This document shows positions 22,038 through 64,000 of a stretch of DNA of 64,000 bases, one piece after another. Each line of letters starts with the position of its first letter. Position 1 is the first letter of the stretch. The DNA comes from Roseovarius salinarum (GTDB taxonomy: Bacteria > Pseudomonadota > Alphaproteobacteria > Rhodobacterales > Rhodobacteraceae), in the NCBI RefSeq assembly GCF_002834145.1, contig NZ_PHNT01000013.1, positions 1 through 64,000 on the forward strand, in the 5' to 3' direction. The notes beneath the pieces were generated by a model. The model saw nothing but the letters and a program-made list of their open reading frames with translations, ran no database searches and was not told the origin of the DNA. The position numbers were made by a program, and so were the translations under genes.

Positions 22038-22099
22038 GTTCTGTCGCCACCCCGTGAAAAAGCCGGCCGAAACCGGTTTCAAAGCCCACGGTCGCACGT

Positions 22100-43449: not shown

Positions 43450-43635
43450 GGGCGTGCCACTCTTCCGGAACACCGGGAAACCATAGTCACGGCATGGCGG
43501 GGCGTGAAGGCAAAACCGCCCCATTCCCGACAACACGAGGCCACAGCGGCCCTATGAACTGCGCCGCGTCGCAACCATCGCTTTGACGGCTCAGAAGACG
43601 GGAATAGACTGGGCCGGGCGCGGGAACGAAGGTCA

Positions 43636-45352: not shown

Positions 45353-48300
45353 ATGCCGGAAGATTTCGCAATCGTTGGGATGTCGCTCAAGGTGCCGGGC
45401 GCGCAGAACGCAGACGCGTTCTGGCGCAATCTTGCTGCGGGCACGGAAAGCATCGTGACGCTCGACGAGGACCGGCTTGCCGCCGCAGGCGAAAGCCGCG
45501 CGCGGATGGCCGACCCCGATTACGTCGCATCCTCCGCGCCGCTGGACCGCTTCGACCATTTCGATGCCGAATTCTTCGGTTTCGGCCCGAAGGACGCAGC
45601 CATTCTTGACCCGCAGCACCGCAAGTTCCTCGAGGTATGCTGGGAAGCGATGGAACAATCGGGGCACGTTCCCGAGCGGTTCGGCGGCGACATCGGCGTC
45701 TACGCCGGCTGCGGCATGGGCAGTTACTTCTATTTCAACATCTGCTCGAACCCGGATCTCGTCGACGATGTGGGCATGTTCCTGCTGCGTCACACGGGCA
45801 ACGACAAGGATTTCCTCGCCACGCGCGTCAGCCATGTCTTCGACCTCAGGGGACCGAGCGTGAACATCCAGACGGCCTGTTCAACCTCGCTGGTCGCCTT
45901 GCACTACGCCTGCCGGGCGCTGCGCGACGGCGATTGCGACATGGCGCTCGCGGGCGGCGTGACGATCGAGCTGCCGCAAGGCCGCGGCTACCTGGCCAAG
46001 GAAAACGAAATACTGTCACCCGATGGTCACTGCCACGCCTTCGATCACCGGGCGCAGGGCACCGTGTTCGGCAGCGGAGCGGGCGTCGTGGCCGTGCGGC
46101 GACTGTCGGATGCCATCGCCGACGGCGATCACATCTGGGCCGTGGTCAAGGGCACCGCCGTCAACAACGACGGCGCGGCCAAGGCGGGCTACCTCGCGCC
46201 CAGCGTGGACGGGCAGGCCGCGGCGGTGGCGCGTGCCCTCGACACCGCGAGGGTCGGGGCTGACACCATCGGCTATGTCGAATGCCACGGCACGGGCACC
46301 TACCTCGGCGATCCGATCGAGGTGGCCGCCCTGACCGAGGCATTCCGGCGCACCACGGCCGAAACCGGGTTCTGCCGCATCGGGTCGGTCAAGACGAACA
46401 TCGGCCATCTGGACACCGCCGCGGGCGTGGCCAGCCTGATCAAGGCCAGCCTCGCGCTGTATCACCGCCAGATCCCGCCCAGCCTGGGCTACGAGGCGCC
46501 AAACCCGGCGATCGATTTCGCGGCCAGCCCGTTCCGGGTGAACGACCGGCTGACGGACTGGCCCGGCGGCAGCCACCCGCGCCGGGCCGGGGTCAACTCC
46601 CTCGGCGTGGGCGGTACCAATGCGCATGCCGTGCTGGAGGAGCCGCCGGAGCGTGGCCCGTCGGAAGAATCGGACTGGCCGTTCCATGCCCTGTGCCTGT
46701 CGGCCCGCGGCAAGGCCGCGCTTGACGCAAATGCCGCGGAACTCGCCGCGCACCTGCGCGCCCATCCCGAGCAACCGCTGGCCGACGTGGCCCATACGCT
46801 CAAGCAGGGGCGCGCGGGCTTCGACGAACGCCGCGTCGTCGTGGCCGAGAGCCAAGCGGAAGCTGCCGATTTGCTGGAGCAGGGCGATCCGCGCCGCGTC
46901 TTCACGCACAGGCGGTTGGGCGCCGACCCGGACGTGGTGTTCATGTTCCCCGGCGGCGGGGCACAATACCCCGGAATGGCGCGAGACCTGTACGAGACCG
47001 AGCCGGTGTTCGCCGAGTGGATGGACCGGGGGCTGGATCACCTCCAGGCGCGGCTGGCTTACGATATCCGCGCGGTCTGGCTGCCCGACCCCGGCGACCA
47101 CGCGGCAGCCGAGGCGCAGCTGCGTCAACCCTCGGTGCAGCTTCCGCTGATCATGATCGCAGAATACGCGCTGGCCCAGCTTTGGCTGTCATGGGGCGTT
47201 CGGCCCACCGCGCTGATCGGTCACAGCATGGGGGAAAACACCGCCGCCGCGGTCGCCGGGGCCATCGGGTTCGAGGACTGCATCGACCTTGTGCTTCTGC
47301 GCGGCCGGCTGTTCGACACCGTGCCGGCGGGCGGCATGCTGGGGGTGGGTCTGCCAACCGACGAACTGGCCGCGGTCATCGGGAACGATCTGGACATCGC
47401 CAGCGTGAACGCCGCGGATTTCTGCACGGTCTCGGGCCCGACCGAGCGGCTGGACGCGCTGCGCGGCCAACTCGAGGCGCGCGGAATCGACTGCCAGCCG
47501 GTCAACATCGACATTGCAGCGCATTCGCGGATGCTCGATCCCGTCCTGCCGGAATTCCGGACGTTCCTCGCCGGTCTGGACCTCGCCGCCCCGCGCATCC
47601 CCTTCGTGTCCAACCGCACCGGCGACTGGATCACGCACGGGCAGGCCACCGACCCGGACTACTGGGTCGGGCAACTGCGCAACACGGTGCAGTTCGCGCG
47701 CGGCATGGCTTGCCTGTCTAACAAGCCCGATCGCGTGTTCCTGGAGGTCGGGCCGGGCCGCGCGATGACATCGCTGGCGCAGATGGATCCGGCCGTCGGC
47801 CCCGAACGCGTGCTCGGCTCGCTGCGCCACCCGGACGAGAAGATCGCCGACGACAAGTTCTTCGTGGGCGTGATCGGCCGGCTCTGGGCCACAGGGGTGG
47901 AGGCCGACTGGAGCCAGATATGGGGAGACCAGCGGCGCAACCGGGTCGTGTTGCCCACCTATGCCTTCCAGTCCAGGCGCTACTTCATCGAGCCGGGGCA
48001 AGCCCGCACCGCCCCCGACGCCGAAGACGTGGCGCGCAACGACGACGTGGGCAACTGGGGCTACCGCCCTTTGTGGAAACCGCGCTACGCCGATTGCGCG
48101 GCGGATGCGCTGCATACCCTGTCGGCCGACGCACCGAAGACGTGGCTGTTCTTCGCCGACGAAACGGGGCTGGCCGAAGCGGCGGCGGAGCGGCTGCGCG
48201 GCGCTGGTCACACCGTGCTCCTGGTGCGCGCGGGCGACAGTTTCGTGCGGCACGACGCCGAGACCTACACGCTTGCGCCCGAGCAGGGGCGCGAAGGCTA

Positions 48301-51300
48301 CGAGGCACTCGTCGAGGCGCTGGTCGCCGACGGGCACATGCCCGACAGGATCGGCCATTTCTGGCTTGTGACCGAGGCGGAGACACACCGCCCCGGCAGC
48401 GATTTCTTCACCCGCAACATGGAGCAGGGCTTTTACAGCCTGATGCACCTTGCCCAGGCACTCGAGGCAGCGGGTCGTCCTGAGGCGCTGCACCTGACGG
48501 TGTTCACCACCGGGGCCGCGCGGGTGACGGACGAGGCCCTGCCTGACCCCGAGAAGGCCACGATCGCCGGACCGGCGGGCGTCATCCCGAAGGAACTGCC
48601 GGGGATGACCGTCACCACGGTCGATCTCGCGCCCGCGCCAGCAGCCCGGCGCCCCGGGCTGCTCAACCGGCTGACGCCCGGACAGCGGGGCCAGGCGTCC
48701 CCGGGGGGCGAGCGGCTGGACAGCGTGCTCGAGGAACTTCTTGCAACGCCATCCAACGCGGTGGCGGCCCATCGCGGCACTCGCCGGTTCGAGCGGGACT
48801 GGACGGCATCGCCCCTTCCCGCGCCGGACACCGCGAACGTACCCGGGGTGCGCGCAGGCGGCACCTACCTGATAACTGGCGGCTTGGGTGGCATCGGCTT
48901 GACCATCGCGCGCGCGCTCGCCTGTGGGGGCGCGGGCGAGATCGTGCTGCTCGCGCGCAGCCCGCTGCCGCCGCGCGACCGCTGGGCGGCGATATCGGCA
49001 GAAGGAACCCCGCAAGGCCCGACGCAACGCCGGATCGCCGCGATCCGCGGGATCGAGGCGGAAGGCGCCACGGTGCGCGTGGAGACAGCGGATGTCTGCG
49101 ACGTCGAGCAGATGGCGCGCATCGTCGCACGCACGCGCACCGAAACGGGTGGCATCGACGGCGTGATTCACGCCGCAGGCACGATCGACGACGCCCCGCT
49201 TCTGGGCAAGGAACCCGCCGACGTCGAGCGGGTCTTCGCGCCCAAGATCAATGGCGTGCGCGTGATCGACCGGGTTTTCGCGGACGGGGAGCTGGATTTT
49301 CTCGTCCTGTTTTCATCGACCAGCACGGTCACGCAACCGGAGGGGCAGATCGACTATGTCGCGGCCAATGCCTTTCTCAACGCCTATGCCGACGCCCGAA
49401 AGGGCGACAAGACGCATGTCCTGGCGCTGAACTGGGGCATCTGGGCCGAGGTCGGCATGGCCGCCGAAGCGCTGGCGGCCCCCACCGAAGCGGCCGACTG
49501 GCAACCGCTGGACCGGCCGCTGCTGCATGAAAGCCGGGTGGCGGAAGATGGGGAGCAGGCGTTCCGGGTCTCTCTGTCGGACAGCACGGACTGGGTGCTC
49601 GACGACCACCGCACCATGGACGGCACGGCCGTCCTGCCCGGCACGGCCTATGTCGAGCTTGCCCTGGAAAGCCATCTCGCAGCGGGTGGCACGCTGCCGC
49701 TGGAAATCCGTGATCTGGTTTTCCTGCGCCCGGTAGTGGCGCAGCGCGACGGGCGCGCCGCGATACAGACGCGGTTGCAGCCTGCGGGCGGGGCAACGGC
49801 ATTCGAGACGCGCAGCCCCCACAGCGTGGACGGTCAAACCGGCACGGTGCTCAATGCGCAGGGGGTGATCGCGCCGGCGGCGTCCGCGGATACCCTTCCG
49901 CCGGTGGACCTTGCCGCGGTGGCGGCGCGCTGCACGACACCCTCGCGCCATGAGGGCGCGGACGGTTTCAAGTCGCCCCAGGAAGCGCACCTGCGGTTCG
50001 GCCCGCGCTGGCGGGTCGTCCACGAGGCATGGCTTGGCGAAGGCGAAGGGATCGCCCGCATCACCCTGCCGCCGGATCATGCCGACGATCTCGAGACCGG
50101 GTTCGTCGCGCACCCGGCGATGCTCGACCTCGCGACCGGGTGGGCCATGGAACTGATCGACGGCTATGCGCCGGACCGGCTCTGGGTGCCCGTCTCCTAC
50201 GGCACGATCCGCCTCGACCGGCCCTTGCCGGGGCGGTTGTTCAGCTGGATATCGCGGCGGGAGGAAACGGACGGGCCGGCCGGCGTCGCCGCCTTCGACG
50301 TGACCCTATGCGACGAGGACGGGGCCGTGGTCGGCCGGATCACCGATTTCCAGATGCAACGCCTCGACACGCCCTTGGCGTTGTCGGACCTTCCCCCGGT
50401 TCGGCCAGACGACCTGGAGCCGGACACGCCCGCCACCTCGCCGCAAACCGACGCGACCCGGCGCATGCAGCGGCTCGTGGCGCTCGGCATCCGGCCCGGG
50501 GAAGGCGCGGAGGCGTTCCGCCGGACGCTGGCCACGCATGCCGCGCAAGTGGTGGTTTCCCCCGTCGCGCCCGCGCAACTGATCGCGCAGGCCGCGCCCA
50601 CCTCCGATGCGGCGGCCACCAGCGGGCCGAGCTTCGAACGCCCCGATCTGGACAGCGCCTACGCCCCGCCCGAAACCGCGATCGAGACGCGGCTTGCGCA
50701 GCTGTGGCAGGAACTGCTGGGCGTCGGAGAAATCGGCGTCGACGACAGCTTCTTCGACCTTGGCGGCCATTCCCTGCTGGCGGTCCGGCTGTTCGCGGCG
50801 GTCAAACGCGAGTACGGCGTGCAGTTCCCGATCTCGGTGCTGTTCGAGGCCCCCACGGTCCGCGCCTGCGCCGCGCTGATCGAGGCACGCACCGGCGGCC
50901 CCGATCCCGTTGCGGACGACGGCCCCGATGACGCGGCCACGGGCGCGGACGACATCTTTCGTCACGCCGTCGCGCTGAACGGGCGCGACGCCGGCCACGG
51001 CACCCCGCTGTTCATCGTGGCAGGAATGTTTGGGAACGTGCTCAACCTTCGCCACCTTGCCCAGCGCCTGCCCCGGCGACCGGTATACGGGCTGCAGGCG
51101 CGTGGCCTGATCGGGGACGAGGCCCCGCACGACACGATCCCCCAGGCCGCCACCGACCACATCGCCGAGATGCGGCGCATCCAGCCTGCGGGCCCGTACC
51201 TTCTGGCCGGTTTTTCGGGCGGCGGCATCACCGCCTACGAGATCGCCCGCCAACTCGAGGCCGCGGGCGAGACGGTGGCGCTGCTGGCGCTGCTCGACAC

Positions 51301-51814
51301 GCCCCTGCCCGTTCGACCGGCGCTTGCGCGCGCCGACAAGGCGATGATCAAGCTGGCGGAATTCCGGCGCAAGGGCGCGCGCTACCTGCTGCAATGGGCC
51401 GCCGACCGCTGGGCGTGGGAAATGCACAAGCGTACTGGCCCACAGGCAGACAACGACGCCGAGGGACAGTTCAACAACCGCCGGATCGAAACGGCCTTCC
51501 GCCGGGCGGTCGCGGCCTACAGGCTGGCGCCGTGGGATGGGCCGGCAGTGCTGTTCCGCCCGCCGCTCGACCGGCACTGGAAGGTCACGGGCGGGAACTG
51601 GGTCAGCCGGCAGCGCGAATACGTCTTCGAGGACAACCAGTGGACGCCCTGGATGCCCAACCTGAAAGTCGTCGAGGTGCCCGGCGACCATGACAGCATG
51701 GTGCTGTCACCCAACGTCCGCGTCCTGGCGCGCCGCCTGTCCGAGGAGATCGAGGCGGCGGAGGCATCGCCCGAGCGGCGCCGCGGTTGGCCCGACAGAC
51801 CGGCGGCGGAGTGA
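45353..51814 (+). CDS. Type I polyketide synthase, KS-AT-KR-DH-carrier-TE
   Basis: A 2153-residue megasynthase. Ketosynthase (about 3-425): Cys176, His312, His352. Acyltransferase (about 528-830): Ser625 in GHSMGE; the selectivity motif reads IAAHS, which is neither a clean malonyl nor methylmalonyl code. Ketoreductase: an N-terminal structural part, then a catalytic part from about 1169 with GGLGGIG and Ser1322, Tyr1335, Asn1339. Dehydratase-like domain (about 1395-1680): His1419 and Asp1592, one extra residue in the His motif. Carrier Ser1807 in LGGHSLL, more like a peptidyl carrier. Thioesterase Ser1955 (GFSGG) and His2113. KR before DH is not the canonical order. The ribosome-binding site is weak. 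It leads a seven-gene chain. Confidence 0.93.
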   Translation: MPEDFAIVGMSLKVPGAQNADAFWRNLAAGTESIVTLDEDRLAAAGESRARMADPDYVASSAPLDRFDHFDAEFFGFGPKDAAILDPQHRKFLEVCWEAMEQSGHVPERFGGDIGVYAGCGMGSYFYFNICSNPDLVDDVGMFLLRHTGNDKDFLATRVSHVFDLRGPSVNIQTACSTSLVALHYACRALRDGDCDMALAGGVTIELPQGRGYLAKENEILSPDGHCHAFDHRAQGTVFGSGAGVVAVRRLSDAIADGDHIWAVVKGTAVNNDGAAKAGYLAPSVDGQAAAVARALDTARVGADTIGYVECHGTGTYLGDPIEVAALTEAFRRTTAETGFCRIGSVKTNIGHLDTAAGVASLIKASLALYHRQIPPSLGYEAPNPAIDFAASPFRVNDRLTDWPGGSHPRRAGVNSLGVGGTNAHAVLEEPPERGPSEESDWPFHALCLSARGKAALDANAAELAAHLRAHPEQPLADVAHTLKQGRAGFDERRVVVAESQAEAADLLEQGDPRRVFTHRRLGADPDVVFMFPGGGAQYPGMARDLYETEPVFAEWMDRGLDHLQARLAYDIRAVWLPDPGDHAAAEAQLRQPSVQLPLIMIAEYALAQLWLSWGVRPTALIGHSMGENTAAAVAGAIGFEDCIDLVLLRGRLFDTVPAGGMLGVGLPTDELAAVIGNDLDIASVNAADFCTVSGPTERLDALRGQLEARGIDCQPVNIDIAAHSRMLDPVLPEFRTFLAGLDLAAPRIPFVSNRTGDWITHGQATDPDYWVGQLRNTVQFARGMACLSNKPDRVFLEVGPGRAMTSLAQMDPAVGPERVLGSLRHPDEKIADDKFFVGVIGRLWATGVEADWSQIWGDQRRNRVVLPTYAFQSRRYFIEPGQARTAPDAEDVARNDDVGNWGYRPLWKPRYADCAADALHTLSADAPKTWLFFADETGLAEAAAERLRGAGHTVLLVRAGDSFVRHDAETYTLAPEQGREGYEALVEALVADGHMPDRIGHFWLVTEAETHRPGSDFFTRNMEQGFYSLMHLAQALEAAGRPEALHLTVFTTGAARVTDEALPDPEKATIAGPAGVIPKELPGMTVTTVDLAPAPAARRPGLLNRLTPGQRGQASPGGERLDSVLEELLATPSNAVAAHRGTRRFERDWTASPLPAPDTANVPGVRAGGTYLITGGLGGIGLTIARALACGGAGEIVLLARSPLPPRDRWAAISAEGTPQGPTQRRIAAIRGIEAEGATVRVETADVCDVEQMARIVARTRTETGGIDGVIHAAGTIDDAPLLGKEPADVERVFAPKINGVRVIDRVFADGELDFLVLFSSTSTVTQPEGQIDYVAANAFLNAYADARKGDKTHVLALNWGIWAEVGMAAEALAAPTEAADWQPLDRPLLHESRVAEDGEQAFRVSLSDSTDWVLDDHRTMDGTAVLPGTAYVELALESHLAAGGTLPLEIRDLVFLRPVVAQRDGRAAIQTRLQPAGGATAFETRSPHSVDGQTGTVLNAQGVIAPAASADTLPPVDLAAVAARCTTPSRHEGADGFKSPQEAHLRFGPRWRVVHEAWLGEGEGIARITLPPDHADDLETGFVAHPAMLDLATGWAMELIDGYAPDRLWVPVSYGTIRLDRPLPGRLFSWISRREETDGPAGVAAFDVTLCDEDGAVVGRITDFQMQRLDTPLALSDLPPVRPDDLEPDTPATSPQTDATRRMQRLVALGIRPGEGAEAFRRTLATHAAQVVVSPVAPAQLIAQAAPTSDAAATSGPSFERPDLDSAYAPPETAIETRLAQLWQELLGVGEIGVDDSFFDLGGHSLLAVRLFAAVKREYGVQFPISVLFEAPTVRACAALIEARTGGPDPVADDGPDDAATGADDIFRHAVALNGRDAGHGTPLFIVAGMFGNVLNLRHLAQRLPRRPVYGLQARGLIGDEAPHDTIPQAATDHIAEMRRIQPAGPYLLAGFSGGGITAYEIARQLEAAGETVALLALLDTPLPVRPALARADKAMIKLAEFRRKGARYLLQWAADRWAWEMHKRTGPQADNDAEGQFNNRRIETAFRRAVAAYRLAPWDGPAVLFRPPLDRHWKVTGGNWVSRQREYVFEDNQWTPWMPNLKVVEVPGDHDSMVLSPNVRVLARRLSEEIEAAEASPERRRGWPDRPAAE

Positions 51815-51818
51815 GATC

Positions 51819-52829
51819 ATGACACCAAGCGTACTGACGATCATCCTGAACTACCGCACGCCCGAGCTGACGCTCAGGGCCGCCGAAGCCGCGGTGCGCG
51901 AGATGGAGGGCATCCGCGGCGAGATCGTGGTCGTCGACAACGGGTCGGCCGACGACTCGGTCGAATGGCTGGCGGCCGCCTTCGACGCGCGCGGCTGGAC
52001 ACGGTCGGGCGCGGTCACCTTCAAGCAGACGGGCCGCAACGGCGGCTTCGGCGCCGGCAACAACTTCGCCATTCGCGCAGGCATGTCGGACGGGTCGGCG
52101 CCGGATTTCGTCTACCTGCTCAATTCCGACGCGTGGCCGCAGCCCGGGGCGATACGGCGGCTGCTCGACCACGTGACGTCGGATCGCGCCTGCGGGATCG
52201 CCGGCAGCTTCATCGAGGGCCCCGACAAGACACCGCACACCACGGCCTTCCGCTTCCCTTCGGCCGCCGGCGAATTCGAGGGGGCCGTGCGAACGGGCGT
52301 GGTATCGCGCCTGCTGCGCAAGTCGGTCGTGCCGCTGCCGATCCCCGACCGGACGACGCGCGTGGGCTGGGTGGCCGGCGCCTCGGCCATGATAAGGCGC
52401 CGCATGCTGGACGAGATCGGTCTCTTCGACGAGACCTTCTTCCTTTACTACGAAGAGACGGACCTTTGCCTGCGCGCCGCACGCGCCGGATGGCAGACAC
52501 ACTACGTGCCCGCCAGCGTGGTCACCCATGTCGGGTCGGCCTCGACGGGAATGAAGCTGTGGCGGCGCACGCCGCGATACTGGTTCGACTCGCGGCTGCA
52601 CTACTTCGTCAAGAACCACGGGCGCGCCTATGCCGCGGCGGCCACGCTGGCGCGCATGACGGGTGCCGCACTTTGGCGGATGCGCGTGGCGGTGTCGTCG
52701 CGACCGCTGGGCGACCCGCCGAACTTCCTTTGGGACCTCACGGCGCATTCGGTGCGTGGCATCCTGCGCCGGCCGTCCGCCGGAAACCGGCCACCGGCCC
52801 CACCAGCCATCGCGGAGAAGACGGAATGA
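51819..52829 (+). CDS. Glycosyltransferase family 2 (rhamnosyltransferase-like) inside the PKS-NRPS operon
   Basis: A 336-residue GT-A enzyme: VVVDNGSADDS, GRNGGFGAGNNFAIR and the metal-binding region YLLNSDAWPQPG, then DETFFLYYEETDLCLRA, the pattern of rhamnosyltransferases and relatives that extend glycans or lipids. It starts four bases after the PKS stop and overlaps the NRPS start (ATGA), so it is made together with both synthases. This suggests the assembly-line product or its carrier is glycosylated; that is inference. Confidence 0.88.
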   Translation: MTPSVLTIILNYRTPELTLRAAEAAVREMEGIRGEIVVVDNGSADDSVEWLAAAFDARGWTRSGAVTFKQTGRNGGFGAGNNFAIRAGMSDGSAPDFVYLLNSDAWPQPGAIRRLLDHVTSDRACGIAGSFIEGPDKTPHTTAFRFPSAAGEFEGAVRTGVVSRLLRKSVVPLPIPDRTTRVGWVAGASAMIRRRMLDEIGLFDETFFLYYEETDLCLRAARAGWQTHYVPASVVTHVGSASTGMKLWRRTPRYWFDSRLHYFVKNHGRAYAAAATLARMTGAALWRMRVAVSSRPLGDPPNFLWDLTAHSVRGILRRPSAGNRPPAPPAIAEKTE

Positions 52830-55800
52830 CCCGGTTCACCTGCATCCTTGTCGGCGACGAGACGCTGCTGATCGGCTGCGGCGACCAGCTTCGCGACTGT
52901 GGTCACGAGATCCTGGCCGTGGTCAGCCGCAACCCTGCCATCCGCGACTGGGCCAGCCACGAAGGCCTGCCCACCTTCGATGACGCAAACGCCCTGCGCG
53001 ACGGCCCACGGGCCGACGGCGCCGACTGGCTGCTGAGTATCGCCAACCTGTCGGTCATCCCCGACGACGTGCGCGCGCTGGCCCGCCGCGGCGCGGTGAA
53101 CTTTCACGACGGGCCGCTGCCGGGCTATGCCGGTTTGAACACGCCGGTCTGGGCACTCATGGCCGGCGAGACGAAGCACGGCGTGACGTGGCACATGATG
53201 GAGGGCGGCGTGGACACGGGCGATATCCTCGTGCAGCGCGAGATCGCCATCGAGCCGGGCGAAACCGCCCATTCGCTGAATTCGAAATGCTATGCCGCGG
53301 GTCTCGACAGCTTCGGTGCGGTTCTGGACGAGCTGGAGACCGGCCAGCCGCATCGCCGCCCGCAGGATCTGACGCAACGCGGCTACTTCGGCGCGCGGCA
53401 CCGCCCGCCCGCCGGTGGTCGGCTGGATTTCGCGCGCCCGTCGGACGATCTGGCACGCACCGTCCGGGCGCTCGATTTCGGAGGCTACTGGAACCCCGTC
53501 GCGCGGCCGCGTTTCACGGCCGGAGGGCGGGCTTTCTTCGTCGGCACAGCCGAGGCAATCGCCCGCACCGACGAGGCCGCGCCCGGGCGCGTTCTGGATT
53601 CCGCGGGTGGCCGGCTGGTGATTGCCACGCAGGACGGTGCCATCGCGCTGTCGTCCCTGACCGACGCGGCAGGCCGCCCGGTGCATCCGCAGGACATCGC
53701 GAAGGCGGGCCAGGTCCTGCCGTGCCCGTCGCCCGACGACGCCGATCGCCTGCGCGCCCTGGCTGCCGAACTGGCCGGCCATCAGGACCGCTGGCGCGAC
53801 CGTCTGGCCGGCATGACCCCGGTCAACGTGCCCCTGGCCGGAGAGGCCGCGCACACGCCGAACTGGGCGGAAACGACCCTGCACTTGCCCCGTGGTTCGG
53901 ACCGTGATGCTCGGATTGCGCTGCTCGCGCTCTGGGCGTTGCAGGGTGCGGGCCAGGTTGCAGCCGACGTTGCGATGGCCCACGCGGCGCTGTCGGAACG
54001 TGCCGCGGCCAGCCCCGATCAGCTCACGCCCTGGGTTCCGCTGCGCGCCGACACGACCGGATGCGCCACTTTCGGGGAACTGCGCGCGGCGATCGCGGCC
54101 GGGCTCGCCGAGACGGGCGGGACGCAAGGGTTCGCCCTGGACTTGCCGTCACGCGATCCGGCGCTCGACCCAGCGCAGATACCGGGCGTCGCGATCTCCG
54201 AGGGCGGGCGCCCCTTCGCCGGCCCCGCCATCCATGCATTCCTGCACAGCGACGGCACATGCAACCTGCACCTCGATCGCGCGCGGCTGTCCGACGCGGC
54301 GATCGAGCTGCTCGTGGCTCGGTTGGAGACGATGGTGACCCGCGCCGAGACGGGGGGCGACACGGATTCGCTCGCGCTCGACACGCTGAACGCGCTGCCC
54401 GACGCGGAACGCGCGATGCTCCTCGACGCCGGCGCAGGGCCGGAGGCCGCGTATGACGCGGCCCTCACCGTGCCACGCGACTTCGAACGCCAGGCCGCGG
54501 AGACACCCGAGGCGGTCGCGCTGGTCTTCGAGGACCGCGCGCTGACCTTTGATGACCTCAACGCGCAAGCCAACGCGGTGGCGTCCCGGCTCCGTGCCGC
54601 CGGCGTGGGTCCCGGGGTGGCGGTGGGCCTGTGCCTTCGGCGTTCTCTGGACCTCGTGATCGGGGCGCTGGCCATCATGAAGGCAGGCGGCGCCTATGTC
54701 CCGCTCGACCCCGAGTACCCCACCGAACGGCTGGCGCATGTCCTTGCGGACAGCCGGGCAACGGTGGTGTTGGCCCACCGGCAGACCGAGGCGTTGCTAT
54801 CGCCGGTCAGCACGGATCGGGTTGTCCGGCTCGAAGACGCTTTGGCCCGAAAGCCCGCCGCGTCCGGAAACGTCGACGGCGGCGCCGGGCCGGACGACCC
54901 CGCTTACGTGATCTACACCTCCGGGTCGACGGGCACGCCAAAGGGCGTCGCCGTCGCCCACCGCAACCTCGCCAATTTCTTCCGCGGGATGGATGACCTC
55001 GTCGACCGAGAGGCCGGTTCCGTCTGGCTTGCAGTCACGTCGATCGCCTTTGACATCTCGGTGCTTGAGCTGTTCTACACGCTCGCCCGCGGCTTCAAGG
55101 TGGTGCTTGCCGGCGGCGAGATCCCGGCGGCCGTGGGCGGAACAAGCGTTCCCGTGTCGGATCGGCCGATGGAGTTCTCGCTCTATTACTGGGGCAACGA
55201 CGACGGGCCGGGGCCGAAGAAATACGAGCTTCTCCTGGAAGGCGCGAAATTCGCCGACGCCAACGGCTTCGCCGCGATCTGGACCCCGGAGCGGCATTTC
55301 CACGCCTTCGGCGGCCCCTATCCCAACCCGGCGGTGTCGGGCGCCGCGGTCGCGGCGGTGACGGGCAACATCTCGGTGCGGGCCGGCAGCTGCGTGGCCC
55401 CGCTGCATCACCCCGCGCGGATCGCCGAGGACTGGGCGGTTATCGACAACCTGACCAGCGGGCGCGCGGGGCTGGCGCTGGCGTCGGGCTGGCACCCGGA
55501 TGATTTCGTGCTGCGCCCCGAGAACACGCCGCCGCGCAACAAGCCGGCCCTGTTCGACACGATGCAGAAGGTGCGGGCGCTGTGGCGCGGCGAGGCGGTG
55601 GGCTTTCCCACCGAGACGGGCGAGATGCGCGAGGTGCGGACGCTGCCGCGCCCCGTTTCGGAGACGCTCGAATGCTGGGTGACGACGGCGGGCAACCCCG
55701 AGACGTGGCGGGACGCGGGCCGGCATGGCGCGCATGTGCTCACCCACCTTCTCGGCCAGACGATCGAGGAGGTCGCCGAGAAGATCAAGATCTACCACGG

Positions 55801-57463
55801 TGCGCTGCGCGAGGCCGGGCACGACCCGGACGACTTCAAGGTCACGGTCATGCTGCACACCTTCATCGCGCCCACCCGGGACGCCGCGCGCGAAACCGCA
55901 CGCGGCCCGATGAAGGATTACCTGCGCAGCGCCGCCGGCCTCATCAAGCAATACGCATGGGCCTTCCCGGCCTTCAAGAAACCGCAGGGTGTGGAATCGC
56001 CCTTCGAGCTGGACCTCGGTGCGCTGGACGAGACCGAGATGGAGGCGATCCTGGACTTCGCGTTCGAGAGGTACTTCGAGGACGCGGGGCTTTTCGGCAC
56101 CGTGGCCGATGGCGTCGCGCGGGCCGAGCAACTCAAGCGCATCGGGGTCGACGAGATCGCCTGCCTGATCGACTACGGCATCGCTCCCGAAACGGTGCTC
56201 GACGGGCTGCGCCCGCTGGCCGAGGTCATGCGCACGGCAAACACGCCCACGCAACCGGCCGAGGACGACCATTCCATCGCGGCACAGATCCTGCGCCACG
56301 GGGTCACACACATGCAGTGCACGCCGAGCATGGCGCGGCTACTGGCGATGAACGACGCCGCGCGCGGCGCCCTTTGGCACGTCAAGCAGCTGTTGCTGGG
56401 CGGCGAGGCCCTGCCCGGCGACCTTGTGGACGACCTGCGCGGTGCGACCAGCGCGCAGATCCTCAACATGTACGGACCGACCGAGACGACCATCTGGTCG
56501 AGCGCCGCGCGCGTGGATGGCGCCGTGGGCCATACCGCCCCCTTGGGCCGCGCCATCGCGAACACCGGGCTTTACGTCCTCGGCCCCGAAGGCGCGCTGG
56601 CGCCGACCGGCGTGCCCGGCGAACTCTTCATCGGCGGCGAGGGCGTGACACCGGGCTATTGGAAGCGCGACGACCTGACCGCGGAACGCTTCGTCGCAGA
56701 CCCCTTCGCGACAAGGGGCGATGCGGCGCGGCTTTACCGCACCGGCGACCTTGTCCGCTGGTCGCCCGATGGCCGGCTCGACTTCCTCGGCCGTGCCGAC
56801 GACCAGGTGAAGGTCCGCGGCCAGCGCATCGAGCTGGGCGAGATCGAAAGCTGCATGAAACGCTTCGCCGGCGTGCAAGAGGCCGTCGTGGTGGCCCGAG
56901 ACAGAGCGGGGGGCGACACGCGGCTTGCCGGGTACTACACCGGCGCCGACCCGAGCGCCGCGGCCCGCCTGCGGGCGCACCTGCAAAGCTGCCTGCCCGA
57001 GGCGATGATCCCGGCCGACCTTGTCGCGCTCGACCGGATGCCACTTACCCCGAACCGCAAGATCGATCGTGCGGCGCTGCCCGACCCGGCCGCGCGGGAC
57101 ACCGACGCGCCGCCGCCGAGGGCGGCCGAGGGCGGATCGGACATGGAACGGACGCTGGCGGGTATCTGGGCCAGTGTGCTGGGCGTGCGCGACATCGCGC
57201 CCGACGACAACTTCTTCGACCTCGGGGGGCATTCGCTGCTCGCCGTGCAGGCGCACCGCGACATCCGCGCCCGCACGGGACACAGCACGCTGTCGATCAC
57301 CGACATCTTCCGTTTCCCGGTGCTCAAGGACCTTGCCCGGCACATCGAGGGCCACGCCGAACCGGCACCGCCAGAGCCCGTGACAGCCGGCCCGGCGCGG
57401 GACACGACGATTTCCAAGCGGCGCGCAATGCGCGCCGGCCGGCGCGGCGGGCGCGGCACGTGA
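52826..57463 (+). CDS. NRPS: formyltransferase - C-like - A (split by flavin monooxygenase) - PCP
   Basis: A 1545-residue synthetase. Formyltransferase domain (about 1-290): Asn92, His94 and Asp130, the catalytic trio of methionyl-tRNA formyltransferases. A region at about 300-520 resembles a condensation-domain tail but lacks HHxxxDG. Adenylation domain from about 535: A3 TSGSTGTPKG (698-707), A4 around Asp743. A luciferase-like FMN monooxygenase of the natural-product type (about 777-1139) is inserted before A5 (NMYGPTE, 1214-1220). Lys1412 is the A10 lysine. Carrier Ser1470. The ten specificity residues read D-I-L-Q-L-G-M-I-W-K, the glycine code. No thioesterase is present. The stop overlaps the PPTase start. 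Confidence 0.93.
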   Translation: MTRFTCILVGDETLLIGCGDQLRDCGHEILAVVSRNPAIRDWASHEGLPTFDDANALRDGPRADGADWLLSIANLSVIPDDVRALARRGAVNFHDGPLPGYAGLNTPVWALMAGETKHGVTWHMMEGGVDTGDILVQREIAIEPGETAHSLNSKCYAAGLDSFGAVLDELETGQPHRRPQDLTQRGYFGARHRPPAGGRLDFARPSDDLARTVRALDFGGYWNPVARPRFTAGGRAFFVGTAEAIARTDEAAPGRVLDSAGGRLVIATQDGAIALSSLTDAAGRPVHPQDIAKAGQVLPCPSPDDADRLRALAAELAGHQDRWRDRLAGMTPVNVPLAGEAAHTPNWAETTLHLPRGSDRDARIALLALWALQGAGQVAADVAMAHAALSERAAASPDQLTPWVPLRADTTGCATFGELRAAIAAGLAETGGTQGFALDLPSRDPALDPAQIPGVAISEGGRPFAGPAIHAFLHSDGTCNLHLDRARLSDAAIELLVARLETMVTRAETGGDTDSLALDTLNALPDAERAMLLDAGAGPEAAYDAALTVPRDFERQAAETPEAVALVFEDRALTFDDLNAQANAVASRLRAAGVGPGVAVGLCLRRSLDLVIGALAIMKAGGAYVPLDPEYPTERLAHVLADSRATVVLAHRQTEALLSPVSTDRVVRLEDALARKPAASGNVDGGAGPDDPAYVIYTSGSTGTPKGVAVAHRNLANFFRGMDDLVDREAGSVWLAVTSIAFDISVLELFYTLARGFKVVLAGGEIPAAVGGTSVPVSDRPMEFSLYYWGNDDGPGPKKYELLLEGAKFADANGFAAIWTPERHFHAFGGPYPNPAVSGAAVAAVTGNISVRAGSCVAPLHHPARIAEDWAVIDNLTSGRAGLALASGWHPDDFVLRPENTPPRNKPALFDTMQKVRALWRGEAVGFPTETGEMREVRTLPRPVSETLECWVTTAGNPETWRDAGRHGAHVLTHLLGQTIEEVAEKIKIYHGALREAGHDPDDFKVTVMLHTFIAPTRDAARETARGPMKDYLRSAAGLIKQYAWAFPAFKKPQGVESPFELDLGALDETEMEAILDFAFERYFEDAGLFGTVADGVARAEQLKRIGVDEIACLIDYGIAPETVLDGLRPLAEVMRTANTPTQPAEDDHSIAAQILRHGVTHMQCTPSMARLLAMNDAARGALWHVKQLLLGGEALPGDLVDDLRGATSAQILNMYGPTETTIWSSAARVDGAVGHTAPLGRAIANTGLYVLGPEGALAPTGVPGELFIGGEGVTPGYWKRDDLTAERFVADPFATRGDAARLYRTGDLVRWSPDGRLDFLGRADDQVKVRGQRIELGEIESCMKRFAGVQEAVVVARDRAGGDTRLAGYYTGADPSAAARLRAHLQSCLPEAMIPADLVALDRMPLTPNRKIDRAALPDPAARDTDAPPPRAAEGGSDMERTLAGIWASVLGVRDIAPDDNFFDLGGHSLLAVQAHRDIRARTGHSTLSITDIFRFPVLKDLARHIEGHAEPAPPEPVTAGPARDTTISKRRAMRAGRRGGRGT

Positions 57464-58179
57464 CCGCCGGCGTGCACGATACCCTTGAGCAGGCCGTGCG
57501 CGGGCTGTTCGGCCCGCACGTCGGAATCGGCGTCACCGATCCGACGGCCCCGCCGGGGCCGCTTTACCCGGGTGAAGGCGCATCGATGGCGCACGCGCGA
57601 AGCCCACGCCGGCGGGAGTTCGCCGCCGGCCGGGCGGCGGCGCGCGCGGCGATGCGCCGGATCGGGCGGTCGCCCGCGCCCGTGCCGCCGGCGCCCGACA
57701 GGTCGCCGGTCTGGCCCCCGGGCATGGCCGGGAGCATCTCGCACAGTGACCGGCTGTGCCTTGCCGTGATCGCGCCGGAATGCGATCACCGAGCGCTCGG
57801 CGTCGATCTCGAACCGGCCGCCCCCCTCGAGGCCGACCTCTTCGCCACCGTCTGCACCGCGGCCGAGCGCGCCTGGCTCGACCGCCAGCCCGAACAACGG
57901 CGCGGGCATTTCGCGCGTGCGCTCTTCAGTGCCAAGGAATGTGCCTACAAGGCCCAGTATCCGATCAGCCGCCAAGTGCTGGATTTCCACGCGTTCGAAA
58001 CCGAATTGGACTTCGCAACCGGCGTGTTCCGGGCCGCTTTCACCGGAGACGTGCCCGGCTTTCCGGCCGGCACCGTGCTTTCGGGGCGTCACACGGTGGC
58101 GGCAGGGCACATCGTCACCGCCCTCGCCTTGCCGCCGGTCGGCGCGGACCGGGCGCGCGTGGCGTGTGTCTCCGGATGA
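57460..58179 (+). CDS. 4'-phosphopantetheinyl transferase (EntD/Sfp superfamily)
   Basis: A 239-residue enzyme that would transfer phosphopantetheine from CoA to the carrier serines of the PKS and NRPS. Motifs: RREFAAGRAAAR (51-62), GSISHSD (91-97), GVDLEP with Asp116 and Glu118 for magnesium, and FSAKECAYKA (156-165) with Lys159/Glu160. It starts at GTG 57460 overlapping the NRPS stop and overlaps the next gene too. A dedicated PPTase inside the operon supports a self-contained biosynthetic system. Confidence 0.93.
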   Translation: MTAGVHDTLEQAVRGLFGPHVGIGVTDPTAPPGPLYPGEGASMAHARSPRRREFAAGRAAARAAMRRIGRSPAPVPPAPDRSPVWPPGMAGSISHSDRLCLAVIAPECDHRALGVDLEPAAPLEADLFATVCTAAERAWLDRQPEQRRGHFARALFSAKECAYKAQYPISRQVLDFHAFETELDFATGVFRAAFTGDVPGFPAGTVLSGRHTVAAGHIVTALALPPVGADRARVACVSG

Positions 58180-59159
58180 GCGCCGGGCTGGAGAAAACGC
58201 GCATGACCGACCGTACCACCCTGCTGATCATCCTCGCGATCCTCGGCGGCATGGCGGCCGTGGCCTGGACCATGATCGCCGCGCGCAGCGGGCCCGACCC
58301 CGAAACGATCCGTCGGGCCTATGCCACGCCGGCGCCGCCGCCCGGCGACGGCTTGCGGGTGTTTCACCTCGGCCACAGCCTGGTGGGGCGGGACATGCCG
58401 GCGATGCTGCAACAACTTGCCGGCACCGGGCATGCCTACGAAAGCCAACTGGGCTGGGGCACCTCGCTGATGCAGCACTGGGAACCCGACGAACCGATAA
58501 AGGGTTTCGATGAGGAGAACGCGCACCCTCGTTTCCGGCCGGCGCACGAGGCGGTGGGATCGGGCGACTACGATGCCGTCGTGCTGACCGAGATGGTCGA
58601 GATCCGCGACGCCATCAAGTACCATGACAGCGGCAGCTATTTCCCGAAATGGGCGGCGTCGGCGCGCGCGGGCAACGCGGAGACCCGCGTCTACCTTTAC
58701 GAAACATGGCCGCGGCTGGACGACCCGGACGGCTGGCTGACACGGCTCGACCGCGACGTCGAACGGTACTGGACGGAGGAGATCCTGCTGCGCGACCTGG
58801 CGGTGAACGCGCCGGAGCGCCCGGCTTACCTGATCCCGGCCGGGCAGGTCATGGCGGCTTTCGTCCGGGCATTGGAGAGCCGCGGCAGCATCGGCGCGGT
58901 GCAGTCGCGCCAAGACCTGTTCCGCCGGACCGAGGCCGATGAACTGGACCCGATCCATGTCAACGACCTTGGCGCCTATCTTGTCGCGCTGACGCACTAC
59001 GCGGTGCTCTATCAGCGCTCGCCGGTGGGCCTGCCGCACGAGCTGCGGCGTGCCGACGGGACGCCGGCCGCAGCTCCGTCCGAGGAAGTGGCACGCTTGA
59101 TGCAGCGCACCGTCTGGGAGGTCGTCAAGGAAGAGGAAATGACCGGAGTGCCCCAATGA
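58176..59159 (+). CDS. Membrane-anchored SGNH-hydrolase-like protein
   Basis: A 327-residue protein with one N-terminal hydrophobic segment (about residues 15-34) and an extracytoplasmic domain. The block FHLGHSLVGRDMP carries the candidate nucleophile Ser68 and DPIHVNDLG the candidate Asp258/His261 of an SGNH (GDSL-like) hydrolase. Such enzymes deacetylate or acetylate sugars. ATG 58176 overlaps the PPTase stop; ATG 58203 would also keep the anchor. It is coupled to the secreted protein downstream, so the two probably act on the same substrate. Confidence 0.7.
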   Translation: MSAGLEKTRMTDRTTLLIILAILGGMAAVAWTMIAARSGPDPETIRRAYATPAPPPGDGLRVFHLGHSLVGRDMPAMLQQLAGTGHAYESQLGWGTSLMQHWEPDEPIKGFDEENAHPRFRPAHEAVGSGDYDAVVLTEMVEIRDAIKYHDSGSYFPKWAASARAGNAETRVYLYETWPRLDDPDGWLTRLDRDVERYWTEEILLRDLAVNAPERPAYLIPAGQVMAAFVRALESRGSIGAVQSRQDLFRRTEADELDPIHVNDLGAYLVALTHYAVLYQRSPVGLPHELRRADGTPAAAPSEEVARLMQRTVWEVVKEEEMTGVPQ

Positions 59160-60877
59160 CGCGATGCCTTCTTGCCGCCATCGCCGTTGCCGCGGCCGGC
59201 CTTCTGCCCGTTGTCTCCACGGCGCAGCAGGCGCCCCGGGCCGATGTGCCGCTGGGCCTGAACCTCGCCCCTGTCAACGACTGGAGCACGCAACAACCCT
59301 TCATCGACGTGATGAAGACCGCACGCCCCTGGATCGGACACAAACCCGGCCAGTGGGGTGGCGTCGACCACGAGGCCTTGGCCGCGCGCGGCATCCTCGA
59401 CGAAAACGGCTGGCCCACCGAGATTCCGCACGACCTTGGCTCCATCGGCACGCTGATCCTGACCGACCTGCCCGAAGACGCGGACATCTATGCCGGCCGC
59501 TACCTTCTGACCTTCCGGGGCGACGGCATTGTCGAGGTCGGCGGGAGCGCGGAAAACGTGCGCTACGGCGATGGACAGCTGCGGTTCGATTTCACCCCCG
59601 GCGGTGGGTTCGTCGGGCTGCGTATCCAGCGTAGCGACCGGCGCGGGACCGGCGACTACCTGCGCGACATATCGGTCGTGAAGATGGAGCACGCGGAGGC
59701 GTGGCGGCGCGGCAAACACTTCAACCCGCATTGGCTGGAGCGGATGCGCGGCGTCTCGGTGCTGCGGTTCATGGACTGGATGGACACCAACAATTCCAAG
59801 CAGGGCCGGTGGCAGGACCGACCGCGGCCCGACGACTACACCTACGCCGAAAAGGGTGTGCCCGCCGAGGTCATGGTCGCGCTGGCCAACGAACTGGGCG
59901 CAGACGCGTGGTTCTGCATGCCCCACCTCGCCGACGACGACTACATCCGCCGTTTCGCCGAGACCGTGAAGGCAAGGCTGGACCGGCCGAACCGGGTCTA
60001 CGTGGAATATTCCAACGAGGTCTGGAACTGGATGTTCGACCAGACGAAATGGGCCGATACCCGCGCCGAGGCCCGCTGGGGCAAGGAGCACAAGGGGGTG
60101 CAGTTCTACGGCATGCGCGCCGCGCAGGTTGCACGGCTCTGGGCCGAGGTGTTCGGTGACGTGCGCGACCGGCTGACCACGGTGGTGGCCACCCACACCC
60201 GCTGGCTGGGACTGGAAACCCAGATCCTTGACGCGCCGCTGTGGGTCAACGAGGCGCCGGAGCAGAACGCCCCACCGGCGCAGGCCTTCGACGCCTACGC
60301 CGTGACCGGCTATTTCGGCCATCCGCTGGGCAAACCCGAACGCCGCGACATGCTGGCGCGCTGGCTGGCGGAAAGCCGCGCTGCCGCGCGCGCGACCGGG
60401 CAAGCCCAGGGGCTGTCCGGCGCTGCCCTCGAGGAGCACGTCGCGCGCCATCGCTACGACGCGGCCGTCGAGAAGGCCACCGAGGAGCTGGCGGACGGGC
60501 GCCACTCGGGACAGGTTGACGGCACGCTGTCCAACCTGCTGGACCATATCCAGCCGCACCACGCGCAGGTCGCGCGTGACCGTGGTCTGGAGCTGATCAT
60601 GTACGAGGGTGGCACGCATGTCTTGGGGCACGGGCCCGTGACAAACGACGAAGAGATCACCGCCTTCTTCACGCACCTGAATTACACGCCACAGATGGCG
60701 CAACTCTACCGCCGCCTCGTCGCCGGTTGGGCCGAAACGGGCGGTGGACTGTTCACCGCGTTCAACGACGTGATGAAGCCCATCAAATGGGGCAGCTGGG
60801 GCCATCTGCGCCACCTTGGCGACGACAACCCCCGCTGGCGCGCGATCCAGACGCTAAAGGACCCGGCGCTGCAATGA
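59156..60877 (+). CDS. Secreted glycoside-hydrolase-like (cellulose-binding-type) protein
   Basis: A 573-residue exported protein: signal peptide to about residue 23 (VSTAQQ), a beta-rich N-terminal part (about 30-180), then a TIM-barrel-like domain. YVEYSNEVWNW puts Asn287-Glu288 where clan-A glycosidases have the acid/base, and LIMYEGGTHV puts Glu484 at the nucleophile position. No glycan specificity can be read. Both ends overlap neighbouring genes by four bases, tying a glycan-active protein to the PKS/NRPS genes. Confidence 0.7.
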   Translation: MTRCLLAAIAVAAAGLLPVVSTAQQAPRADVPLGLNLAPVNDWSTQQPFIDVMKTARPWIGHKPGQWGGVDHEALAARGILDENGWPTEIPHDLGSIGTLILTDLPEDADIYAGRYLLTFRGDGIVEVGGSAENVRYGDGQLRFDFTPGGGFVGLRIQRSDRRGTGDYLRDISVVKMEHAEAWRRGKHFNPHWLERMRGVSVLRFMDWMDTNNSKQGRWQDRPRPDDYTYAEKGVPAEVMVALANELGADAWFCMPHLADDDYIRRFAETVKARLDRPNRVYVEYSNEVWNWMFDQTKWADTRAEARWGKEHKGVQFYGMRAAQVARLWAEVFGDVRDRLTTVVATHTRWLGLETQILDAPLWVNEAPEQNAPPAQAFDAYAVTGYFGHPLGKPERRDMLARWLAESRAAARATGQAQGLSGAALEEHVARHRYDAAVEKATEELADGRHSGQVDGTLSNLLDHIQPHHAQVARDRGLELIMYEGGTHVLGHGPVTNDEEITAFFTHLNYTPQMAQLYRRLVAGWAETGGGLFTAFNDVMKPIKWGSWGHLRHLGDDNPRWRAIQTLKDPALQ

Positions 60878-61719
60878 ACGGTGCGATTGCGCCCGCTGCC
60901 ACGGTCATCGTGCCCGCCCACGACGAGGCGGAATTCATCGCGCCATGCCTCGCGGCGCTGCTGGCCTCGGATATTGCCGCGCCGGTAGAGGTGATCGTCG
61001 TCGCCAACGGCTGCACGGACGACACCGCCCGGATTGCAAAGGGGTTCCACGCGCCCGCCGAGACGCGCAACTGGCGTTTGCAGGTTCTGGAGCGCGAGCA
61101 GGGTGACAAGCTGCGCGCGTTGCAGGCCGGCGACGACGCGGCGGCGGCACCGGTGCGGATCTACCTTGATGCCGACACGCGGGTGAGCGCCGGCCTTCTT
61201 GGCGAGTTGATCGCCGCGCTCGATTCGCCCGGGCCGCGTTATGCCAGCGGGCGCCCGAGGGTCGCCCCGGCACGCAGCCCGGCCACGCGCGCCTATGCCC
61301 GGTTCTGGCAGCGCCTGCCGTTCTTCCGCGCGCCGGCGCCGGGCTTCGGGATCTACGCGGTCAACGCCGCCGGGCGCGCCCGCTGGGATCGATGGCCGGC
61401 GATCATCTCCGACGACACCTTCGCGCGGATGAATTTCGCGCCGGAGGAACGTGTGGCCGTCGGCGCCCCGTACGACTGGCCGATGGTCGAGGGCTTCGGC
61501 CCGTTGGTCCGCGTGCGCCGGCGGCAGGACGCGGGCGTGCGCGAGATCGCCCAACGCTTCCCGGATCTTGCGAAGAATGCCGATCCGTCCGCCCGTTCCG
61601 CCAAGCTGCGGGCGGCGCTGCACGACCCGATCGGTTTCGCCGTGTACGCGGGCGTTGCCCTATGCGTCCGGCTGCCCCTCGGGCGCGGCGGATGGGCGCG
61701 GGGACGCGGACCCGCCTGA
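60874..61719 (+). CDS. Glycosyltransferase family 2, last gene of the PKS-NRPS operon
   Basis: A 281-residue GT-A enzyme: VIVPAHDEAEFI, VVANGCTDDTA, the metal motif LDADTRVS (about residues 96-103) and ISDDTFARMNF (about 178) as the acceptor-side acid motif. A short hydrophobic stretch lies near the C-terminus. It overlaps the preceding gene (ATGA). Its last 60 bases overlap the 3' end of the convergent GT4-type gene. Confidence 0.85.
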   Translation: MNGAIAPAATVIVPAHDEAEFIAPCLAALLASDIAAPVEVIVVANGCTDDTARIAKGFHAPAETRNWRLQVLEREQGDKLRALQAGDDAAAAPVRIYLDADTRVSAGLLGELIAALDSPGPRYASGRPRVAPARSPATRAYARFWQRLPFFRAPAPGFGIYAVNAAGRARWDRWPAIISDDTFARMNFAPEERVAVGAPYDWPMVEGFGPLVRVRRRQDAGVREIAQRFPDLAKNADPSARSAKLRAALHDPIGFAVYAGVALCVRLPLGRGGWARGRGPA

Positions 61720-63090: not shown

Positions 63091-64000
63091 ATGCGCGTCA
63101 TCAATGCATTTCGCGGGACGCAGCTGACGGCGCGCATCCTGCGCAGCACGTCCTGGGTGATCGTGGGTTTCGGCGGGTCGCAGGCGATCCGGCTGGGGTC
63201 CAACCTGATCCTTACCCGCATCCTCTTTCCCGAGGCTTTCGGCCTGATGGCGCTGGTGACAATGGTCAACGTCGGGCTGATGATGTTCTCGGACGTCGGG
63301 CTGGGGCCTTCGGTGGCGCGCAGCCAACGCGGCGACGAGCCCGAATTCCTCGATACCGCCTGGACCGTGCAGGTGATCCGCGGGATCGGGTTGTGGGCCG
63401 TGACGCTGGTGCTGGCCTCGCCGATGGCCGCACTCTACGACGAACCCGACCTCGCGCTTTACCTGCCGGTCGCCGGGCTTTCACTGATTGCCACAGGCCT
63501 GCTGCCGATGCGTGTCCTGACTGCAAGGCGGCACCTGCTGATCGGGCGGATGACCGTGCTTGACCTGACGGGCCAGCTGATCGGCCTGGGCGCGATGGTC
63601 GCTCTGGCGCTGGCGACCCGCTCGGTCTTTGCGCTGGTGGTGGGCGGGGTCATTACGAACGTCGTCACGCTGATCCTCATGTCGGCCTTTTTGTCGGGAC
63701 ATCGCAATCGCTTCAGGATGGAACCGGCCGCGCTGCACGAGCTGATCCACTTCGGCAAGTGGATCTTCCTGAGCACCGCCTGCACCTTCGTCAGCACGCA
63801 GGGAGACAAGGCGGTGCTTGGCAAGATGCTGACGCTCGAGGCGCTCGGCATCTACAACATCGGCTATTTTCTTGCCTATTTCCCGATGCAGATCGGCTTA
63901 TCGCTGGCCAACTTTCTGCTCATCCCGATCTTCCGCGAACGCCCGCCGGGCGAATCCGCCGCCAACCGGGAAAAGTTGCGCAAGATGCGCTTCCTGCTCA
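63091..64000 (+). CDS. Wzx-type oligosaccharide flippase (3' end outside window)
   Basis: 303 visible codons of a polytopic membrane protein of the MATE-like polysaccharide-transport family. Typical features are LRSTSWVIVGFGGSQAIRL at the N-terminus, LTRILFPEAFGLMALV, and FGKWIFLSTACTFVSTQGDK, with about eight hydrophobic segments so far. It would flip undecaprenyl-linked repeat units for the Wzy-like protein. The gene runs past base 64000. Confidence 0.88.
   Translation, partial: MRVINAFRGTQLTARILRSTSWVIVGFGGSQAIRLGSNLILTRILFPEAFGLMALVTMVNVGLMMFSDVGLGPSVARSQRGDEPEFLDTAWTVQVIRGIGLWAVTLVLASPMAALYDEPDLALYLPVAGLSLIATGLLPMRVLTARRHLLIGRMTVLDLTGQLIGLGAMVALALATRSVFALVVGGVITNVVTLILMSAFLSGHRNRFRMEPAALHELIHFGKWIFLSTACTFVSTQGDKAVLGKMLTLEALGIYNIGYFLAYFPMQIGLSLANFLLIPIFRERPPGESAANREKLRKMRFLL

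Follow-up and report, generated by a model that had tools for sequence, protein, structure and literature searches.

Gene content of the locus

The window analysed here, the first 64 kb of contig NZ_PHNT01000013.1 (contig C5) in the Roseovarius salinarum assembly (3.4 Mb, 59 contigs), carries a polyketide-peptide assembly line among polysaccharide genes. Seven genes on the same strand, at 45353-61719, encode a polyketide synthase (PKS), a family 2 glycosyltransferase (GT2) called GTa, a nonribosomal peptide synthetase (NRPS), a 4'-phosphopantetheinyl transferase (PPTase), an SGNH-like protein, a glycoside hydrolase (GH)-like protein and a second GT2, GTb. The PKS and GTa genes are separated by a 4-base gap and the remaining five junctions are 4-base overlaps, which confirms the co-directional operon recognized in an earlier note made from the letters of the window. 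Across relatives, the assembly line is conserved with, yet optional to, a cassette consisting of GTup, WecG, Wzy, GTa, GTb, GT4, GH, Wzx and Wzz. The features of the locus, with the matches on which each assignment is based, are as follows (KS, ketosynthase; AT, acyltransferase; KR, ketoreductase; DH, dehydratase; ACP, acyl carrier protein; TE, thioesterase; A, adenylation; T, thiolation).

41690..42682 (+): GTup, GT2 glycosyltransferase, start of the polysaccharide cassette (PF00535)
42688..43536 (-): WecG/TagA/CpsF-family glycosyltransferase (PF03808, E 1e-44)
43636..45051 (+): Wzy-like polymerase/ligase membrane protein (PF04932, E 4e-4, below cut-off)
45353..51814 (+): type I PKS, KS-AT-(KR prefix)-KR-DH-like-ACP-TE (Pfam)
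51819..52829 (+): GTa, GT2 glycosyltransferase, gene between PKS and NRPS (PF00535)
52826..57463 (+): NRPS, formyltransferase - degenerate linker - A (glycine-type code) with inserted MupA/Atu3671 monooxygenase - T (Pfam/NCBIfam, TIGR04020)
57460..58179 (+): PPTase (PF17837 and PF01648)
58176..59159 (+): SGNH hydrolase/acyltransferase-like protein with N-terminal hydrophobic helix (AlphaFold model, PDB match to SGNH fold)
59156..60877 (+): GH-A-type glycoside hydrolase-like protein, probably exported (AlphaFold model, GH51/GH79-like TIM barrel; hydrophobic N-terminus)
60874..61719 (+): GTb, GT2 glycosyltransferase (PF00535)
61660..62925 (-): GT4 glycosyltransferase, EpsE-like (PF13692/PF00534; NF041876 262 bits, below the cut-off of 400)
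63091..64000 (+): Wzx-type flippase, continuing beyond the window to C5:64455 (PF13440/PF01943)
C5:64471-65736 (-): Wzz, just beyond the window on the same contig (PF02706)

The start codon of the Wzx gene, at about 63091, was chosen by us. The Wzx protein scores 149 bits against PF13440 (cut-off 23) and Wzz scores 27 bits against PF02706 (cut-off 25.5), as expected of a Wzx/Wzy-dependent locus. The Wzy-like protein, at 20.5 bits, falls under the PF04932 cut-off of 31.7 and could be a ligase-type relative. No priming glycosyltransferase was recognized among the scanned genes, a subset of those in the window. The GTb gene and the minus-strand GT4 gene are convergent and share 60 bases at their 3' ends (window 61660-61719). 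Further upstream, by more than 20 kb, a gene for a nucleotide-sugar dehydratase-like protein (PF02719; window 20157-22097, minus strand) could supply the same polysaccharide.

Conservation of gene order and co-occurrence

The order PKS-GTa-NRPS is retained among relatives at roughly 50-65% protein identity. In a survey of 149 genomes of the family (Rhodobacteraceae), one per genus, the NRPS was full-length in 49 and partial in 4 more. Forty loci were picked as strong matches from among these 53 genomes (one genome twice), and all 40 showed the PKS-GTa-NRPS order, with one PKS cut by a contig end. A scan of GTDB species genomes with a GTa profile gave 564 confirmed stretches, the best 80 of which were taken as named loci. 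Among these 80, a PKS homologue was present in 78 and an NRPS homologue likewise in 78, and the three genes were contiguous and co-directional in 75. GTa came first in L113 and stood apart in L133 and L138, and the L119 and L134 loci had neither PKS nor NRPS. Because the scan was seeded with GTa, loci that lack this gene are not measurable by it. In a class-wide survey of 385 genomes, 8 had a GH match, which in two was weak and fell below E 1e-13 only in part; 7 had a strong NRPS match, and five of these 7 belong to the same family as the window.

Co-occurrence was tabulated over the 149 genomes as both / first only / second only / neither, with the 49 full-length and 4 partial cases counted as NRPS-positive. 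Left out of this set were G144 (45% identity, a 4565-aa frame, GH-negative) and NRPS pieces in G085, G097 and G147. NRPS and GH gave 50/3/5/91, or 52/4/3/90 with G085, G097 and G147 counted. A Wzy homologue was found in 59 genomes, with 51/2/8/88 for NRPS and Wzy and 53/2/6/88 for GH and Wzy. For NRPS and SGNH the table was 32/21/1/95, so that 32 of the 33 SGNH-matching genomes have the NRPS, or 29 of 30 without the weak matches (G023, G062 and G111, only 32-39% identity). The control pairing of NRPS with KatG was flat (45/8/78/18, p = 0.66). GH and NRPS co-occur even where they lie far apart on one contig, by 165 kb in G121 and 586 kb in G034. The earlier note had made its interpretation depend on the glycosyltransferase and hydrolase genes being conserved with the PKS and NRPS genes, and this held in the gene order (40/40, and 75/80 of the best 80 of 564) and in the NRPS-GH table (50/3/5/91).

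Polysaccharide setting across relatives

The neighbourhoods of 116 non-redundant loci (120 fetched minus 4 duplicates) were screened for six polysaccharide markers, all of them outside the operon: GTup, Wzy, GT4, Wzx, WecG and Wzz, with matches to GTa and GTb excluded. At least one marker was present in 107/116 loci and at least two in 96/116; among loci of at least 17 kb, 105/107 had at least one. The control consisted of 20 KatG neighbourhoods from NRPS-bearing genomes, with one marker in 1/20 and two in 0/20. This count replaces a wider ten-marker count (109/116 versus 2/20) that had included SGNH, GH, GTb and an unverified 'kinase' open reading frame. A GTup homologue occurs in 46/116 loci and lies upstream of Wzy in one of two common contexts; a WecG-family homologue occurs in 41/116, mostly adjoining Wzy; and a Bac_transf cluster occurs in 7/116. 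GTb is present in many related loci.

The largest clusters of unlabelled neighbours were Wzz (41 loci), the WecG-family glycosyltransferase (37), a ParA-like protein (31) and an epimerase (26). Six of the ten largest such clusters were scanned, the other two being a sugar transferase and a molybdopterin oxidoreductase, and no small-molecule exporter was found among the six.

Domain content of the assembly line

The NRPS scores 462.6 bits against TIGR04020, the family of MupA/Atu3671 monooxygenase NRPSs (curated cut-off 244.45), and the nearest solved structure to it by sequence is that of PuwE (6ket, E 7e-93). Active-site motifs are conserved among 40 aligned NRPSs and the formyltransferase retains its NxH...D motif. 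The linker at residues 298-545 had neither a Pfam nor a PDB match, is poorly conserved and lacks HHxxxDG in 40/40 NRPSs; read by eye, it may be a remnant condensation domain. The ten-residue code of the A domain, DILQLGMIWK, is of the glycine type, its positions having been assigned by motif. Among 108 readings of the code, from 107/120 sources, 104 fit DILQ[L/M/F/Y]GM[I/V]W. MtaG and MelG are glycine-activating A domains with an inserted monooxygenase (MOX).

The code DILQLGMIWK is identical to that of four glycine-activating domains with MOX described in PMC12283262, and the window module shares the MOX insertion with them, so the A domain is predicted from code and insertion to activate glycine. 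The MOX domains as described there cleave the glycine backbone and form a terminal amide, whereas the window module, which has a formyltransferase and a partner PKS, looks like a starter. The fabrubactin siderophore pathway, like the window, has an assembly line with a flavin-dependent monooxygenase, in FbnE (PMC12971057). A siderophore reading is not favoured for the window, where no siderophore or metallophore genes were recognized among the annotated neighbours, no siderophore model having been run.

In the PKS, the KS Cys/His/His, AT Ser, KR Ser-Tyr-Asn, ACP and TE Ser/His motifs are kept in at least 90% of 39 aligned sequences. The DH motif is changed to HX4GX4PG in 35/39, and dehydration is uncertain because of this alteration. 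A Pfam scan of the PKS matched no enoylreductase (ER) family, and the AT motifs, GHSMGE and IAAHS, do not fix the specificity of the AT. The KS (mean identity to the window copy 0.76) and the NRPS monooxygenase (0.75) are the most conserved parts of the assembly line. Taken together, the domains predict a short acyl, made from formyl-glycine and one malonyl-type unit and oxidized by the inserted monooxygenase.

The SGNH and GH proteins

Neither the SGNH-like nor the GH-like protein of the window has a Pfam family, and the likeness of the latter to glycoside hydrolases rests on its fold model. The SGNH-like protein combines an SGNH fold with the expected Ser and DxxH, and S68, D258 and H261 are invariant in 19 aligned sequences. 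In the GH-like protein, E288 and E484 are invariant in 16 aligned sequences (L019 was omitted from this alignment). In 27/44 GH loci the GH gene bears a second SGNH domain fused at its N-terminus (for example L030:14671-17229), which the window copy lacks. This fusion accounts for a gap of 770-911 bases between SGNH and GH in nine loci, which had resembled an extra gene. A PADLOC scan of SGNH, GH and GTa gave zero matches, and an IMG/VR scan using GTa gave no relative.

Cassettes without the assembly line and modules in other lineages

Loci in G077, G104 and Amaricoccus (L119) carry GTup, Wzy, a GTa homologue and GH, and PKS and NRPS are absent from them. The GTa homologues are 36%, 38% and 62% identical to the window GTa, respectively. 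No full NRPS of the window type was found in the Amaricoccus genome, and only weak NRPS matches were found in the G077 and G104 genomes. Because such cassettes exist without PKS and NRPS, the glycosyltransferases and the GH appear to belong with the glycan cassette, and the PKS, NRPS and PPTase appear to be removable. As the glycosyltransferases go with the cassette, they need not act on the product of the assembly line. A GTa dedicated to that product is likewise not favoured, given the 62%-identical GTa in Amaricoccus, a genome without a full NRPS.

The module is also found beside other glycan genes. In Shinella, a flippase, PKS, NRPS, PPTase, WecB-family glycosyltransferase, GT2 and priming transferase lie in a row, and the Neorhizobium and Rhizobium loci resemble this one by homology. 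The Aminobacter locus combines PKS, NRPS, PPTase and a glycosyltransferase with GH9, an O-antigen ligase, an export protein and a flippase. In two Burkholderiales loci (L084 and L124), PKS-GTa-NRPS adjoins an XrtA/PEP-CTERM-type ATPase (281-285 bits, under the 324.5 cut-off), together with WecG- or EpsE-like glycosyltransferases. L084, L124 and L113 are loci of metagenome-assembled genomes (MAGs) labelled Burkholderiales. In a quick tree L084 and L124 branched within Rhodobacteraceae, as did L113 in a separate position, a pattern suggestive of transfer as a unit; MAG mixing is also possible.

G430, which is nearly identical to a Methylobacterium plasmid copy, has the NRPS and then the PKS, with Wzz, GT4 and DegT genes close by. 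The same order, NRPS first, is seen in Methylobacterium and in a further pair, G488 (see Discussion), consistent with chain flow from NRPS to PKS. The PKS-GT-NRPS core also occurs on large plasmids of Ruegeria conchae (L203), Paracoccus marcusii (L206) and Parasedimentitalea (L210), where it sits among polysaccharide genes (sugar transferases and glycosyltransferases), with rhamnose genes in L203 and a flippase in L203 and L206. A Streptomyces plasmid also gave a match, but only over the A-MOX-T part and amid different neighbours, and it was taken to belong to another pathway.

Discussion

Together, PKS, NRPS and PPTase appear to form an acyl module that a Wzx/Wzy-type exopolysaccharide system can do without. 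We consider it probable that the locus is an exopolysaccharide cassette of this type with a built-in acyl assembly line, the short acyl product of which decorates the repeat unit. Of the two products offered by the earlier note, a glycosylated peptide-polyketide and an acyl group carried by an exopolysaccharide, the latter is better supported, because the cassette occurs without PKS and NRPS (G077, G104 and L119) and because the module occurs in exopolysaccharide loci with other glycosyltransferases and hydrolases.

We infer the attachment of the acyl to the glycan, the roles of the SGNH and GH proteins and the chemical product along the following lines. The PPTase, of the carrier-priming kind, would prepare the assembly line; the NRPS would load glycine, then formylate and oxidize it; and the PKS would extend it by one malonyl-class unit and reduce the keto group. 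The TE could then free a short acyl bearing a hydroxyl group, such as 4-formamido-3-hydroxybutanoyl or a relative with further hydroxylation, and this acyl would be placed on a sugar of the repeat unit. Outside the cytoplasm, the SGNH protein may transfer or remove the acyl, and the GH may trim or clear the polymer, a function that dedicated hydrolases have in other exopolysaccharide systems. The alginate and Psl systems have dedicated hydrolases and SGNH acyl enzymes, and GH and SGNH are encoded with glycan genes there as in the window; they use acetyl donors, whereas the substituent in the window is predicted to come from the assembly line.

Several observations weigh against this proposal. 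No enzyme for acyl transfer from ACP to sugar was identified beyond the candidates TE and SGNH. Among the PDB matches of the formyltransferase, sugar N-formyltransferases and Met-tRNA formyltransferases outrank that of gramicidin synthetase, which makes its acceptor unsure. SGNH is missing from 21/53 NRPS genomes and GH from 3/53, and the Fisher values for co-occurrence overstate independence because the genomes are related. The GTa homologues of G077 and G104, at 36-38% identity, may be other GT2s. Nine of the 116 loci are free of markers; seven of them span 4-14 kb, and L044 and L088 span at least 17 kb. The NRPSs of G085 (L160/L161) and G097 (L162/L163) have an A domain without the monooxygenase insertion, with codes DILQLGLIWK and DILQMGMIW? 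at these loci, and the G085 PKS match skips the DH region. The product is therefore likely to be strain-variable. Loss of the insertion may have occurred more than once, since G085 (less than half filled) and G097 fall in different parts of the tree. The clearest contrary case is G488 (L178/L179), with an NRPS-PKS pair at about 41% and 37% identity near which no glycan genes were recognized; the pair can thus stand alone.

The G488 pair, with a major facilitator superfamily (MFS) transporter about 3.5 kb beyond its PKS, would suit an assembly line whose product is a small molecule secreted in free form, with or without glycosylation by GTa; nearness to exopolysaccharide genes would then reflect a shared role in surface life and not a shared product. 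The PKS also ends in a TE. Thioesterases commonly yield free acids. The core has been treated as a secondary-metabolite cluster with unknown product in PMC5014874 and PMC4062626, in their passages on it. We nevertheless regard a free molecule as unlikely, as the six scanned neighbour clusters include no small-molecule exporter, GH and Wzy accompany the NRPS even where they are not linked to it, and other lineages bear the module in exopolysaccharide loci. Neutral co-location, with the assembly line placed in a variable island of surface-polysaccharide genes but not acting on the polysaccharide, appears more doubtful still. Islands of this kind do collect foreign genes, and the cassette is present without the NRPS in some genomes of the family, but the PKS-GTa-NRPS order is held at the divergence noted above, GH and Wzy co-occur with the NRPS against a flat KatG control, and the same pairing is seen in Rhizobiales and Burkholderiales. 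RkpA and WcbR, the capsule PKSs proposed to make lipid-like anchors or primers, are likewise type I PKSs in surface polysaccharide loci, and the window PKS adjoins a glycosyltransferase; they are of the reducing, ER-containing, chain-building type, whereas the window PKS has no matched ER, is paired with an NRPS starter and ends in a TE, and a glycine-type starter with a formyltransferase suits a short polar acyl and not a long chain, so that a lipid-like anchor or primer was rejected as the main reading and is considered highly improbable.

Part of the system has been described before. Citing Martens et al. 2007, PMC5014874 reports a roseobacter cluster, its product unknown, with PKS, glycosyltransferase, NRPS and PPTase, which are likewise together in the window. 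The genome of that paper, Leisingera sp. JC1, contains our locus L107, with the order PKS (cut by a contig end)-GTa-NRPS-PPTase-SGNH. The description of the cluster given there includes neither a polysaccharide link nor the SGNH, GH and GTb part. In P. inhibens T5, a PKS (Inhi_1972) and an NRPS (Inhi_1974) are listed in PMC4062626, and by their numbering would fit the PKS-GTa-NRPS pattern. A PKS/NRPS hybrid common to four genera is reported in PMC10608839, a strain of which, Aquicoccus porphyridii L1 8-17, carries our locus L071, which may be the same cluster. The view of the earlier note that no described system has this gene set therefore does not stand for the PKS-GT-NRPS-PPTase core, and stands for the SGNH/GH/GTb extension and the tie to Wzx/Wzy polysaccharide, for which nothing was found in the open-licence papers searched. 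It is this setting that is new.

A wider statement, which in our judgement could equally well hold or fail, is that there is a class of exopolysaccharides in Rhodobacteraceae, some Rhizobiales and Burkholderiales that bear a formyl-glycine plus malonyl substituent built by NRPS and PKS and added by the TE or an SGNH transferase. The product would then be a hybrid peptide-polyketide-polysaccharide, not a secreted metabolite, tuned between strains by loss of the monooxygenase or the DH.

The roseobacter cluster has been noted since 2007, without an identified product in the passages of the papers describing it, and in genome papers it appears among the secondary-metabolite clusters. If its product does decorate an exopolysaccharide, searches for free compounds would miss it, and polysaccharide hydrolysates would be the place to look. 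Such a role would join two fields, as assembly-line enzymes are rarely considered to be glycan-modifying, and could bear on the attachment of roseobacters to algae and particles.

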